Positions 36,200 to 41,936 of a DNA stretch of 64,000 nt are shown piece after piece (the stretch's first letter is position 1; each line of letters starts with the position of its first letter). The stretch lies in the NCBI GenBank assembly GCA_903896015.1, contig CAITWF010000021.1:1-64000 (forward strand), in the 5' to 3' direction. The notes under the pieces are model-generated. The model saw nothing but the letters and a program-made list of their open reading frames with translations. It had not been told where the DNA came from and did not search any database. The translations under genes and the position numbers were made by a program. Origin of the DNA: an uncultured Opitutia bacterium (GTDB lineage: Bacteria; Verrucomicrobiota; Verrucomicrobiia; Opitutales; Opitutaceae).

Positions 36200-37114
36200 G
36201 TCAAGCCAAGAGCGGGCGAAACTGAGCTTTTTTATTCACATTTTATCCACTTGTTGTAAGGACCGATGTAAGGAATCGCTTCTCGGGCCGACGAAGCGGA
36301 ACTCACAACTACCGGTCAGACTAGGGGCACCTCGCCCGGGTGCTCGTTTCACGACGGTTGCATCACAACGCGCGACTACTCGACCCAACGAACTTACGCT
36401 CGCAGATGCTCGAAGATTTACAGATTAACGCGTGTAGCCGCGTATCTGTAAGTTTTTCCTCCGATTCGTGGTGCGACTCGGGCCAACGGGCGACACAATC
36501 CAGCTTCCACCACCAACCATTATACTGGTGGCTTCGCGCCCAAGCCCAAGCCTCGGCCAGAAACAGTCACAATCAACGCCGACTGATTTCAGCAGCGAGG
36601 CAACGTCTATGCAGCCGCCACCCGAGGTTTGTAAACTCGGCGTTCGGTTTGCGGGCGCAGAAACTTAACGACCCGGAATCCAGAGAAGAGACAACATCGT
36701 TCCCTGGTCGTCCAACGGGGCCGCTAACTCAAACAACTCCGCATCCTCGTAGGTCGTGATGTGCGGGAACGAGGACCTCTCAGAAGCGGCATTCAACGCC
36801 GCGTTGGGCCTGCCGTTCACTTCACACAGACTCGCCGAAGAACTTCATCGCGCTTGGATCGAATGTTGAGAGAGACCGGCGCCGCGACTGTCATGTCGCG
36901 TCCGAAACGAGTGCCAGAGTAGTCACTCGAGTCTTGGCTTCTAATTTGAAGATGCGCTTCCCGCGGCGAACGAAATAATCGACCATCGGACGACTACGCA
37001 GCGATAGCGGCCTTACTCGATGGGGTTTGTTGGCATTCTTTGCTGACGGTGTAGCAAAATGGAGATAGTGTTCCCATGAACACTTGCACTTTTTTCGCGG
37101 CTGCTTTCGCTCCC
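36200..37114. other. long intergenic region, no gene recognised
   Basis: About 0.9 kb between the dcw promoter and the accessory island. Frames here are short, Ser/Pro/Arg-rich and overlap on both strands without a convincing candidate. Near the left end are AT-rich stretches (about 36225-36260) that could hold the dcw promoter, and a direct repeat TGTAAGGA at 36255-36262 and 36267-36274. The remainder looks like eroded or non-coding DNA. Confidence 0.6.
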
Positions 37115-37163
37115 GGTGCGGCGTGACACAATTGTTGGCGCGAAAATGACACAATTCGTGACC
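37115..37163. repeat. 49-bp inverted repeat, left copy
   Basis: This 49-bp stretch is the reverse complement of 40942-40990 with 46 of 49 positions matching (differences at 37122, 37151 and 37161). Within it the block TGACACAATT occurs twice, 23 bp apart. The two copies bracket a 3.9-kb segment with a toxin-antitoxin-like pair, a SRAP pseudogene and an AAA ATPase. Internal short repeats near an end recall IS21-type ends, but no such transposase is present. Confidence 0.85.
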
Positions 37164-37180: not shown

Positions 37181-37504
37181 CTAGCGCGGGTGCGGAATAA
37201 TGGCGAAGACCGTGATCACAGGGATATTCTTCTTGGTCTTTGGGTCGCGCTCGTCGGGACCGTAATACCAGAGTATGCGGTAAGCGCCCGGAGTATTGTT
37301 CTGCGCGTAGGCTTCAAACACCTTGCGATCCTTGGTCGAAAGCGACGTGAACTCGTGGGTGTTTAAGCTCGGGTGCGTCGGGTCACTTTGCAGATGGCCC
37401 AATGCCCTGTTTACCTGCTTATGTATCGCCTTGGTCGAAGGAGAAAGCCCGAGTTCGGCAAGCTGGTTCTTGGCCTCGGTAGAAAACCGCAAGACGCGAA
37501 ACAT
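37181..37504 (-). CDS. putative type II toxin, RelE/ParE-like
   Basis: A 107-residue basic protein. The C-terminal half reads as alternating beta strands (KVFEAYAQNN, GAYRILWYYGPDE, VITVFAIIPHP) ending in an I-x-P-H-P tail typical of RelE/ParE-fold mRNA interferases or gyrase poisons. It begins 5 bp after the stop of the upstream 98-residue gene, the usual antitoxin-then-toxin order. Family membership is by pattern only. It sits just inside the left inverted repeat of the island. Confidence 0.55.
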   Translation of the reverse strand: MFRVLRFSTEAKNQLAELGLSPSTKAIHKQVNRALGHLQSDPTHPSLNTHEFTSLSTKDRKVFEAYAQNNTPGAYRILWYYGPDERDPKTKKNIPVITVFAIIPHPR

Positions 37505-37509
37505 CGCGG

Positions 37510-37803
37510 TTATCCCTTTGCGTGCTTCGAGAAATCACCCAAGTCATGGACTTCGCCGCGGGCGGCCTGCTCCAACCCGCGTTTAACTGATGCCAACGCA
37601 GCAGGGTTTTCAAAAAGCCAAGCCTCGTCTGCCGGAACGGCCCTCACGGGATCGAGGAACAGTTGGCCAACGGGGTTCCTGTAAATGTTAAACGCGCTCG
37701 ATCCAGCCAATGCTTCTCCGAGCGAAAGCCTTTTTTTGGCGTCGGTGCGGGCAAACTCAGTCACGAGTTCAAAGTTAGTATTCTTGATGACGGATGAGGA
37801 CAT
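37510..37803 (-). CDS. putative antitoxin partner of the RelE/ParE-like toxin
   Basis: A protein of 97 residues from ATG 37801-37803 (MSSSVIK); an in-frame ATG five codons earlier (37816-37818) is also possible. The centre (AFNIYRNPVGQLFLDPV, then ADEAWLFENPAALASVKRGL) and the DLGDFSKHA tail look like a conserved small-protein family paired with RelE/ParE-like toxins. The N-terminal half may carry the DNA-binding part. The gene pair forms a two-gene operon; an imperfect TGGGCC/GGCCCA inverted repeat lies just upstream and may be the autoregulatory site. Confidence 0.5.
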   Translation of the reverse strand: MSSSVIKNTNFELVTEFARTDAKKRLSLGEALAGSSAFNIYRNPVGQLFLDPVRAVPADEAWLFENPAALASVKRGLEQAARGEVHDLGDFSKHAKG

Positions 37804-37943
37804 GAGGTAACCATGCATCGATGGGCCTTGTGAGTCAAGTGGGAATGGCCCACAACGGTTGAGACAACGCCTTTCCGCCCGCAGGCGGTTCGATGGCGCA
37901 TAACCTGGCCACCGGCCCCTTATTGCGTCACGCGCTACCCGGT

Positions 37944-38181: not shown

Positions 38182-38860
38182 CTAGAGAGCAAGCTCGCCG
38201 CCACGGAGCTCGTCTTTCGCGATCTTCTTTTTCCTCTCGGGTGGTGGTAGATCGCGGCGCACAAACTGACCTGCATAAGGCTGACAGAAGGCCATCAGGT
38301 GATCGTCCCTCCGCGATCGTCCGATAGCGGCTCACTTCCGATCCACCGACTGGTACCCTCGGCATCGAGAATCAAAGGCGTCCGGTCGTGGCCAATCTCG
38401 GCGACGATGGGGTTGGCTTGGTGGTCACTATCGCAAAGCCGCGGTCCTCTCCGACCGGGTCGTTGGACCAGATGCCGCCAAAGAAGAAGGGCTTTTGGTC
38501 CGGCAGGGTGAACAGCACCTCCCATTTCGCGCCAATCGGGCCCGGTCCGCTCGAAGAACCCGTCAGCGGCAGCCACGCACCGCTTGTGGCGGGCCGAGTG
38601 CTTCCAGTTTGTTCTTCGTCAGGAGTGCATCGTCGCGCGTGTTCACGACCGGGCGGCTCTTCAGCACTTTCTCGTAATAGGGCCAGCCCCCCCAGCGCAT
38701 CGTTGTCAGCGTGCGGCCCTTCTCCCCTTGATAGACAATCGGCATCTGTTTTTTTGACCAGTCCCAGGTCTCCTTGGGGATGCTGGCGAGGACCTTTTCC
38801 ACCACCTCGGCAAACTCGCGTTCGAGCTTTTGAACCTCAGCGACAGTTGAGCGCGCGCAT
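38182..38860 (-). pseudogene. SRAP (YedK/HMCES-type) abasic-site protein, frameshifted
   Basis: SRAP proteins crosslink abasic sites in single-stranded DNA through an N-terminal Cys2. Pieces of one such gene are readable on the minus strand in successive frames: CARSTVAEVQKLEREF (the Met-Cys start is destroyed, TGC no longer following ATG), RTLTTMRWGGWPYYEKV, VNTRDDALLTKNKLE, then AADGFFERTG, KPFFFGGIW, GFAIVTT, NPIVAEIGHDRTPLILD and a basic tail with ERKKKIAKDELRGGEL. At least four frame changes separate these blocks. The loss of the start and catalytic Cys means no functional SRAP can be made. Confidence 0.8.
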
Positions 38861-39010
38861 TGAGCGATTGTAGTGGTTGCACACGGCGCCCCGAGATTGG
38901 AGCGATGGCAAGGGATCGGCAAGCAGCGGAACCGCAACAAGGTGTACACAACAAGGCGCTGTCCGACTCGTTCCTGGCTATCGGAAACCGCGCTCCTCCC
39001 CTGGTGGAGC

Positions 39011-39142: not shown

Positions 39143-40609
39143 TCACGGCTCGAACAAGGCTGCGAGCGTCACCACATTTTGCACCAGCTCCGCTCGGTAA
39201 TCGTTCGCCCTGACGCCGCAGACCGTGACGATAGCGAGAAATACCGACTTGCGCGTGCCACTGACGCGCCGGAACACATCGAGTTTCGAGCGCAGCTCGC
39301 GAGCGTACTCCTTGTCGACGACGAATTCGTCGTCACAGAACTTCATCTCGCAGACGCTGATCACGCCGTCCGCTCGGTCGAAAAGCAGGTCGATTTGTGC
39401 TCCGGTCTCGCCCTTGGCCTTGGGCTTAGGCTGGTGGCGCCACGAGCAAACCGACGCCGGGACGGTCGCGATCCCCAGGGCCTTCTTGATCTGCGTGGAG
39501 TGCCGCAGGCAGATGTTCTCGAAGGCGTAGCCGCTCCAGGCCATGCCGGCAGGGGCGAGGCGCTGCCCGGGCCAGTCGCGGGCGGCCGCGCCGCTACCCT
39601 GTCTCTCCACCCAGCGGAGATGGAACAAAGTGAGTTCATCGAGCAAGCGGTAGTAGGGGTCCCGTGTGGTTCGTCCCAGCGGAATCATCCGGCAGATAAA
39701 TCCCGACGCTTCCAATTCCTCCAGGATCGCGGTCAGGCCTCCGCCGGTCCCCAGATCGGTTTCGCGGATGATGTCCTTGCGCTGTAGGCCGGACTGGCGC
39801 TTCGCCAGCGCTCGGATGACCTGCAGGTGCCGCTCGTGATGCTCAAAAAGGGCCGCGAAGACCTGGAGGAACTCATCGCGCAGCGGGGCGTTCTGAGCAA
39901 AGAACAGAGCATGAATGTTCTGCGCGGCAGACCATCCTTTGCGCACATGGTTCAGGTAGAACGGGACGCCGCCGATGGCCATCGCGAGTTCGACGGTCTG
40001 CCGGTGATCCAATTTGACCCCCGCGGACCGCAAGTAGGCGTCAATCTCAGGCAGGCTAAAGGGCTGAAGCTGGATGCTGCTGGTGATCCGATTGTGCAGG
40101 CCGCCTTTCTGGTGAAGCACCTTCGCGATCATCCAAGAGGCGGCGGAGCCACAAATGACAACGATCAGGTTCCGCTGGCGCGTTCCCCAGCTATTCCAGA
40201 AATGGTCAAATGCGGGCAGGAACCCGGACTTCCTACCCGCCAGCCAGGGAAGCTCGTCGAAAAACACGACCTTGCGGCCGCCCGCGCGCACCAGTGGATC
40301 GAGGTAGCGGGTCAACTCCTCGAATGCCTCGGTCCAGTCGCGCGGGGCGGCGTGCTGGAAGGTGGTCTCCTCCCGTAGGCTACCTGCGAAGTTGCGGAGT
40401 TGGTGGGCGCGCGACATTCCACTTACGCCGGTCATCTCGAAGCAGAGCTCCTTGGCGAAGTAGGTACGAATCAGGTGCGTCTTCCCGATGCGGCGGCGCC
40501 CGTGGACGGCGATTAGCTCAGGCCGGCCGGAAGCCATGGCGCGGGCGAGCTGCTCCTGCTCGACGGTGCGACCAATCAGCGGCAACGTAGCTTCGCGTGG
40601 GCGGGGCAT
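39143..40609 (-). CDS. archaeal-type AAA ATPase with DUF234-like nuclease-fold C-terminus
   Basis: A 488-residue protein from ATG 40607-40609. LIGRTVEQEQLARAM precedes the Walker A HGRRRIGKTH (residues 36-45); Walker B is KVVFFDELPWL near residue 120. This pattern is typical of the archaeal ATPase family. The C-terminal about 100 residues carry GAQIDLLFDR, then SVCEMKF, which fits the D-(x)n-ExK core of PD-(D/E)xK nucleases (DUF234-type). The role of these proteins is unclear; mobile-element or defence functions are often proposed. An ATG 20 codons upstream would lie inside the palindromic array, so the internal start is preferred. Confidence 0.82.
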   Translation of the reverse strand: MPRPREATLPLIGRTVEQEQLARAMASGRPELIAVHGRRRIGKTHLIRTYFAKELCFEMTGVSGMSRAHQLRNFAGSLREETTFQHAAPRDWTEAFEELTRYLDPLVRAGGRKVVFFDELPWLAGRKSGFLPAFDHFWNSWGTRQRNLIVVICGSAASWMIAKVLHQKGGLHNRITSSIQLQPFSLPEIDAYLRSAGVKLDHRQTVELAMAIGGVPFYLNHVRKGWSAAQNIHALFFAQNAPLRDEFLQVFAALFEHHERHLQVIRALAKRQSGLQRKDIIRETDLGTGGGLTAILEELEASGFICRMIPLGRTTRDPYYRLLDELTLFHLRWVERQGSGAAARDWPGQRLAPAGMAWSGYAFENICLRHSTQIKKALGIATVPASVCSWRHQPKPKAKGETGAQIDLLFDRADGVISVCEMKFCDDEFVVDKEYARELRSKLDVFRRVSGTRKSVFLAIVTVCGVRANDYRAELVQNVVTLAALFEP

Positions 40610-40629
40610 GGGGGCGGTCCCGGGAATGT

Positions 40630-40782
40630 GGGTTGCAGCGAGGTATGTCAAACGGATATCCCGCCACAACCCCCATTTTTTTTCGAGTTGTGGCTAAATA
40701 TGATGGCACGCTATTCCGCCATAACTCGACAAATAAGCTGAGTTGTGGCGAGATATCAGGCCCCACTATTTCGCCACAACTC
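40630..40782. repeat. three 43-bp palindromes at 55-bp period upstream of the AAA ATPase
   Basis: Units at 40630-40672, 40685-40727 and 40740-40782 are each 43 bp, each start 55 bp after the previous one, and each is an imperfect palindrome with outer arms based on GAGTTGTGGC and GCCACAACTC. The third unit has 12 perfectly paired outer positions; the first is most diverged (GGGTTG and CAACCC ends). The array starts 20 bp upstream of the ATPase ATG, so it spans its promoter or leader. It could be a multi-site operator or a set of RNA hairpins. Confidence 0.85.
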
Positions 40783-41117
40783 GAGCGCCGTAAAGATTGG
40801 CCGAGAAAACGAACGGAATAGCGAGCACATCCTCGGCGAACGCGGCCTCGATGGACTTGGGTGCGTCGCCATCCAAGACCGTGAACCCGCCGCCGAGCTA
40901 GGCACCTCGAAGAGCGGCGGCGTCGCTCAGCGGTGATCGTCGGCCACGAATTGCGTCATTTTCGCGCCAACAATTGTGTCACTCCGCACCTGGGTGGCCG
41001 GCGGGGAACGAGTTTTTAGACGACGTGGTATACTGCCTTGGGTCCTTCGGGGGCGGCAGTTGCCCACGAGATCCGCCACCATGCGGTGCAGCTCTCCGCT
41101 GCACCGGCGAACCCTAA
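40783..41117. other. gap between palindrome array and IS5, no gene supported
   Basis: About 335 bp. It contains the right copy of the 49-bp inverted repeat (40942-40990). On the minus strand a stretch of about 40 codons near 40783-40900 reads with ordinary composition (GGGFTVLDGDAPKSIEAAFA) but has no start or recognisable domain, so it may be a remnant. The right end borders the IS5 element. Confidence 0.5.
40942..40990. repeat. 49-bp inverted repeat, right copy
   Basis: Reverse complement of 37115-37163 with three mismatches. It closes the 3.9-kb island block. No clean target-site duplication is visible immediately outside the two copies. It lies 128 bp from the left end of the IS5-family element, and the two features appear independent. 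Confidence 0.85.
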
Positions 41118-41133
41118 GAGCGCGTCCAAAAAG

Positions 41134-41936
41134 TCATCGAACGAGGCGGCGGAGCATGAGTCTGACCATGGATAAGTAGATGAAAGACTCCGAAGAGGAG
41201 ACGGTATGTGCGTAGTCTTTGCTGAGCCGGCGAGAACGCCCCAGCCAGGCGAAGGTGCGTTCGACGACCCAGCGGCGGGGCAACACCTTGAAGCAGTGGA
41301 GCGGCGTGGAGCGTTTAACGATCTCCAGCCGAGTGCCACGGCTGGGACGCAGGCGGCGGACCCAATCGACCAACGAACCGGCGTAACCGCCGTCCGCCCA
41401 GATACACCGCAGCCAGCCGAAGCGGGCGCGCAACGTGGCGAGCAACAGGCGGGCTCCATCCCGATCCTGCACGTTGGCGGGATGGACGCAGACGAGCAGA
41501 ATCAGTCCCAGGGTATCGACCAAAAGGTGTCGCTTTCGTCCTGCCACCTTCTTGCCAGCATCGTATCCACGAACTCCACCTTGCTCAGTTGTTCGCACAC
41601 TTTGCGCATCAAGGATCGCAGCCGTGGGGGCCTTTTTTTACCAGCTTGGAGGCGCACGGCATCGCGCAGCGCGTCGTTGAGCCGGGCCCACACGCCCTGC
41701 TTCTTCCAATGGGCGAAATAGTGCCAGACCAGTTTCCATGGCGGCAGATCGTTCGGCAGCATCCGCCACGCGCAGCCGCTGCGGACCAAGTAGAAGATCG
41801 CATTGAGAATCGCGCGCTTCGAGTACTTCTCCGGTCGACCGGCCTTTCTTGCTTTTGGTATCAAGGGATCGAGCAGCGCCCACTCCTCGTTCCGAAGGTC
41901 ACTGGGATACGTCTTCGTGCTACTGGGATTTACCAT
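41134..41936 (-). CDS. IS5-family transposase, two frames joined by -1 frameshifting
   Basis: The first frame (41936 down to 41502) encodes the N-terminal domain (YPSDLRNEEWALLDPLIP, then GCAWRMLPNDLPPW). At the A7 run (41633-41639) a -1 slip joins it to the second frame, which gives APTAAILDAQSVRTTEQGG and continues to the stop at 41134. The joined product of about 267 residues has the DDE triad: Asp in ILDAQS, Asp in WADGGYAG and Glu in VVERTFAWLGRSRRL. Without the slip the first frame ends in a non-homologous tail. The arrangement matches other IS427-group elements. Confidence 0.88.
41633..41639 (-). other. A7 slippery run for programmed -1 frameshift
   Basis: Seven consecutive A on the minus strand fall exactly where the conserved transposase sequence changes frame from LQAGKK to APTAAILDAQ. 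Slippage of ribosome or polymerase here would yield the full DDE protein. Confidence 0.75.

Follow-up and report, generated by a model that had tools for sequence, protein, structure and literature searches.

A palindromic array upstream of a predicted ATPase-nuclease gene in an uncultured Opitutia bacterium is probably a private autoregulatory operator

An array of inverted repeats directly before an ATPase-nuclease gene of an uncultured Opitutia bacterium is probably a private autoregulatory operator, bound by the gene's own product through a winged helix. We put the probability of this reading, which is drawn from sequence comparisons, at about 0.72. The array consists of three 43-bp inverted repeats at positions 40630-40672, 40685-40727 and 40740-40782 of the window, the 64,000-nucleotide stretch of contig that was analysed. 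The starts of the repeats lie exactly 55 bp apart and the array begins 20 bp before the ATG of the gene, confirming the arrangement reported in the initial annotation. With growing distance from the gene, 12, 13 and 15 of the 16 arm positions pair. The divergence toward the gene that had been noted is therefore real, whereas the arm symmetry that was said to be largely kept is kept only moderately in the gene-proximal unit (12/16). At up to 3 mismatches, the 16-nt arm occurs five times in the 64-kb window, every time inside the array (chance mean 0.38; five reached in 0 of 100 shuffles). A degenerate half-site closest to the gene (40630-40645, plus strand) is absent at this threshold. No sigma-70-like promoter was recognisable in the window array.

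The gene (39143-40609, minus strand) encodes a 488-aa protein to which Pfam, PADLOC and an AF2 model (pLDDT 85.6) assign an ATPase_2 domain, a predicted winged helix and a PD-(D/E)XK domain. The match to Pfam ATPase_2 (PF01637) has an E value of 2.4e-10 (41.1 bits against a cut-off of 33.2), and the other Pfam matches are to weaker AAA models. The gene had also been labelled DUF234-like, a label we drop since Pfam gave no DUF234 match at E <= 0.001. The PADLOC PDC-S27 model PDLC04984 matches over its full length at residues 11-486 (E 2.1e-177). Among 155 proteins, the Walker A and B residues G37, G42, K43, D118 and E119 are invariant. Near the C terminus D407 (154/155), E421 (153/155) and K423 (154/155) are near-invariant and make up the D...ExK signature of PD-(D/E)XK nucleases. 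The helices of the predicted winged helix span residues 258-301 (codons at 39707-39838, minus strand), as judged from the AF2 secondary structure and from the covarying residues 288, 291, 293 and 294 discussed below. In the model the recognition helix covers residues 290-301, and the wing strands cover 305-308 and 319-322. A Foldseek search ranked PABY2304 of P. abyssi first and Orc1/Cdc6-type initiators next, with Apaf-1, plant resistosomes and Avs3 lower, and a sequence search of solved structures returned TnsC as its sole match (E 6e-4). As modelled, the protein is an Orc/STAND-kind ATPase with a winged helix and a predicted nuclease.

Close relatives of the gene were found in 20 genome contigs from Opitutaceae, Gammaproteobacteria, another proteobacterium, Bacteroidota groups and a Thermoanaerobaculia bacterium. 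Within its own order they occur in 6 of 273 genomes, its own genome counted. The 18 genomes behind the 20 contigs contain up to 23 family matches each and supplied a first set of 107 distinct genes. For 80 of the 107 genes, the last 280 bp before the gene contain a 14-mer three or more times, with copies in either orientation; at least three alternating half-sites were found in only 3 of 104 far-upstream controls. For a second set we turned to Bacteroidia, where matches in 36 of 295 genomes yielded 54 new genes; at least three alternating half-sites precede 28 of the 54, as compared to 1 of 53 far-upstream controls. Overall, a conserved unit of the kind defined below occurs once or more before 127 of 148 genes. 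The occurrence of comparable arrays before so many homologous ATPases argues for the multi-dimer binding platform that was among the functions first proposed. Among the 21 genes that have no unit are L024 and L015, the latter 76% identical and below threshold, with three half-sites visible by eye. Of nine plasmid or phage stretches, seven were scored and three had a confident half-site pair; such an array was absent from the haloarchaeal stretches L199 and L201, which were inspected by eye only. In Wolbachia phage WO (L194, MN180249.1) a 41.5%-identical ATPase gene adjoins phage head genes, and the two-copy palindromic repeat before it departs from the unit model.

When the half-sites of 76 genes (the 80 with at least three half-sites, less four distant genes that scored under 450) were aligned without gaps, the 18-nt word that emerged had the form TTATA-NNNN-GC-NN-AA-N-N-T, written with its inner end first. 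Placed in the register of this word, facing half-sites leave 13 or 14 bp between their outer ends in 117 of 120 pairs, and the inner gap of the 43-bp palindrome is 1-5 bp in 79 of 84 pairs. Of 155 intervals between half-sites of the same orientation, 140 measure 50-55 bp. A sliding-arm gap histogram was uninformative because shifted arms produce many gaps, and we used instead a scan in which any gap from 7 to 21 bp was permitted. In the first set the scan settled on 13 or 14 bp for 67 of 70 genes, and outside the defining set it did so for 60 of 61 confident genes. It found any pair at all in 4 of 152 far controls, and 20 of the 54 genes in the extra set had no confident pair. Thus, the conserved unit is two half-sites of about 18 bp with outer ends 13-14 bp apart, paired across the 12-bp spacer between neighbouring 43-bp repeats. 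Since the inner gap varies and the outer gap is nearly constant, the conserved units of the window array are 40654-40703 (gene-proximal) and 40709-40758 (gene-distal), each with two half-sites and a 14-bp gap. The 43-bp repeat that was originally taken as the unit does exist, but across relatives it is a flexible pairing with a variable inner gap and not what is conserved. Flanking the two conserved units are the degenerate half-site at 40630-40645 and the outermost half-site at 40767-40782 (minus strand), which has no partner beyond it.

The half-site words are strongly divergent between genes (TTTAGCCCGATATAA, TTTCTCCAAGTATA, GTTTCAGCCAC and others), and their letters covary with residues of the protein encoded by the adjoining gene. 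In a set of 73 genes, from which L059, L106 and L118 were left out for their ill-defined words, the mutual information between residue 288 and letter 12 was the highest of all pairs (Z 17.9). Other strong pairs were 293 x 11, 294 x 9, 291 x 9 and 316 x 14. In the AF2 model the covarying residues are found within or immediately ahead of the recognition helix, and in the wing. For the first set, S or T at 288 is associated with C at letter 12 (29/30), N with T (18/20) and D or E with G (13/19), and R294 is associated with G at letter 9 (17/17). We applied these rules to 28 unseen arrays whose genes are at most 72% identical to the training genes (median 55%). Letter 12 was predicted by residue 288 in 23 of the 26 genes scored, a result reached in 0 of 100000 permutations; the two remaining genes have P288, for which there is no rule. 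G9 was present in 9 of 9 unseen genes with R294 as compared to 1 of 19 without it, and the 316 x 14 pair was weaker (a letter other than A in 4 of 6 genes with R316 and 2 of 22 others). In a third set, composed mostly of single units, letter 12 was right in 30 of 34 cases and the association of R294 with G9 was weaker (4/7 versus 5/27). A tree from which the winged helix had been left out put 9 of 21 changes at residue 288 on the same branch as a change at letter 12 (under the null, mean 2.4 and at most 8 in 5000); for 316 x 14 the co-changes numbered 11 of 17 (null mean 2.3). Covariation of the word with the gene's own recognition helix suggests that the array is bound by the ATPase itself, the interaction that the initial annotation had proposed to test.

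That closely related genes have common words (of 16 pairs with more than 70% identity, 10 lie within 1 mismatch) would also be expected if the array were the operator of another regulator and the covariation came from shared descent only. We consider this very improbable because the unseen genes are predicted despite their distance from the training genes, because branch co-changes exceed the null for both 288 x 12 and 316 x 14, and because the top covarying residue adjoins the recognition helix. Covariation is found outside the winged helix too, mainly at letter 11 (142 x 11, Z 15.7), where eight genes carry the minor letter, and we read it as a clade effect. Word and protein distances are correlated, with a Spearman coefficient of 0.29 in the recognition helix and 0.14-0.18 in other parts and a Mantel partial r of 0.25 (0 of 2000), and each of these correlations is weak alone; the word-reader claim is carried by the residue-level tests and not by the distance correlations.

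Among 180 Bacteroidota units, the gap contains TAnnTTTG, presumably the Bacteroidota promoter box, pointing toward the gene in 27 and away from it in 1. We propose for the autoregulatory operator that the winged helix would bind the inverted half-site pairs, with outer ends 13-14 bp apart, directly before its own gene, probably as one dimer per unit, on units repeated approximately every 53 bp, or about five DNA turns. Because the half-site pair in Bacteroidota brackets a promoter-like box aimed at the gene, binding there should stop transcription, and the repression could be lifted by a sensed signal or through the ATP state.

Paired arms could also form leader RNA hairpins, serving as an attenuator or, as in type III systems, as an RNA antitoxin before a nuclease. 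The arms do pair and change together, the latter supporting the earlier suggestion of selection on the palindrome, and G-U mismatches slightly outnumber A-C mismatches (65 versus 46). However, T-T mismatches are twice as numerous as A-A mismatches (28 versus 14), indicating a strand bias, and region 40300-41200 has no Rfam match at the gathering score. The word letters covary with a DNA-binding helix, and a promoter-like box between half-sites would put the gene-proximal half-site near the transcript start. The RNA reading, one of those first put forward, is thus unsupported and in our view scarcely credible.

The words are near-unique in the three genomes searched as a whole. In two other genomes all matches at 0-1 mismatch are in the word's own array (5/5 and 4/4). 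For the window word in its own genome, 4 of 6 such matches are in the array and 2 are outside, and the count of more distant matches is similar to that of a reversed control. Word cores are distinct within each of the six genomes that have at least four scored genes (15/15, 10/10, 16/16, 5/5, 9/9 and 4/4). If each copy has its own word and a matching reader, the many copies in a genome should not cross-regulate. Once protein identity is matched, word pairs from one genome are not clearly further apart than pairs from two genomes, and the distinct cores are thus no evidence of selection for insulation.

A tentative extension, which we think rather doubtful, is that the cassette works as a name tag, in which a private DNA word is combined with a reader of it that is fused to an ATPase and a predicted nuclease. 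Word and reader would then diverge jointly, and the array might be the cassette's address beyond any repression, a part of the idea that is just as tentative. Equally speculative uses of such an address would be self-recognition, nuclease licensing or movement. If true, this would reveal a large class, so far undescribed, of single-gene units that are mobile or engaged in conflict, and a single genome would have dozens of mutually distinct members.

It is unlikely that the array is the end or address of a minimal mobile element, made up of array and gene, that the ATPase-nuclease reads so that the cassette can be moved, copied or protected. Homology is limited to array and gene in 7 of the 11 pairs that we compared, extending from the array edge to the gene's last codons between unrelated flanks. 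An eighth pair (L085/L129) has the same left edge, its right side being limited by the contig end, and three of the 11 pairs have flanks in common. The L090/L091 pair is 96% identical over the cassette as compared to 82% in a neighbouring gene, and one genome has the block on the final bases of a gene of which the two other compared genomes have an intact copy, a pattern that fits recent transfer of the block. Mobility would also agree with the presence of family members on plasmids and in phage records and with the 23 and 22 family matches in two genomes. On the other hand, neither a second array end nor solo arrays were found in the three genomes searched, where the words are essentially confined to their own arrays, and no target duplication is evident. 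Operator selection and flank decay can explain the edges of pairs near 80% identity, and the same operon lies nearby in both the L090 and L091 genomes, so that deletion or transfer by recombination is possible there.

The combination of ATPase and winged helix is shared, by fold match, with archaeal Orc1/Cdc6 proteins, which have inverted boxes beside their own gene. Orc1/Cdc6 proteins are not known to have a nuclease and, unlike them, the ATPase-nuclease family has many private words. The fold matches and the plasmid-borne copies would be in keeping with a replication origin, or an iteron-type site of an Orc-like initiator. Against this stand the number of family matches, which reaches 23 in one genome and among which those scored have differing words, and a near-invariant nuclease motif, which is not known as a trait of initiators. 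We judge an origin most improbable, and the replication or recombination site named in the initial annotation is unsupported. Toxin-antitoxin operators are autoregulated palindromes whose paralogues are insulated by operator specificity; here, in contrast, the unit is a single gene in which no separate antitoxin was seen.

The autoregulatory operator can also be compared to that of BrxR, a winged-helix repressor whose binding sites, the R-boxes, are inverted repeats that precede genes for phage defence (PMC9122601). In the parts of that paper available to us, the likeness extends to a winged helix, inverted repeats near the promoter, repression, and repeats upstream of many homologues. BrxR is described there as a separate WYL repressor with repeats of ~11 bp and a 5-bp spacer, whereas the reader proposed here belongs to one protein with an ATPase and a predicted nuclease, its half-sites have a gap of 13-14 bp and the units recur approximately every 53 bp. 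PDC-S27, of which the window protein is a full-length member (E 2e-177), is a putative single-gene phage defence candidate, as is PDC-S01. The available parts of PMC12988326 describe S01 and S27 as fusions of an ATPase domain with a PD-(D/E)XK member and say that experimental validation is still awaited for most PDCs. Neither an upstream array nor private words or a reader code come up in those parts, and the term "inverted repeat" does not occur in the main text. A literature search, with preprints and most subscription papers outside its reach, recognised no account of such arrays. As signs of a defence island, PADLOC matches were no more than scattered among the 84 frames that neighbour 20 of the loci (16 families, of which 15 matched 1 of 84 frames each and one matched 2 of 84), and by Pfam the frames are mostly ordinary genes.

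A private operator together with a residue-to-letter code would allow a cheap direct DNA-binding test for many genes, and offers a handle on what switches ATPase-nuclease genes on. The family would also offer winged-helix/operator pairs that are naturally distinct from one another and might be of use as tools.

Several further observations concern more distant relatives and the surroundings of the window array. Upstream of L013 and L014 (more distant, 29% identity) are alternating half-sites in ~27-bp steps with another word, and the very distant relatives L133-L137 have different, tighter palindromes at the gene start, so that private operators may be general across this superfamily. Long arrays with an extra period of ~135 bp are located upstream of L025 and L032. 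In the window, 52-nt inverted repeats (92%) at 37112-37163 and 40942-40993 enclose 3.8 kb containing the ATPase gene, a SRAP fragment and two small genes. The 25-nt core of these repeats occurs at these two places only in the whole genome, and the repeats look like the ends of a decayed mobile element. The short SRAP (SOS-response peptidase) fragment (38563-38949) scores under the Pfam cut-off and is perhaps a broken gene; the two small adjoining genes (37181-37818) have no Pfam match and by eye resemble a toxin-antitoxin pair. An IS4/IS5-type transposase in two overlapping frames (41134-41936; Pfam DUF4096 and DDE_Tnp_1) adjoins the array.
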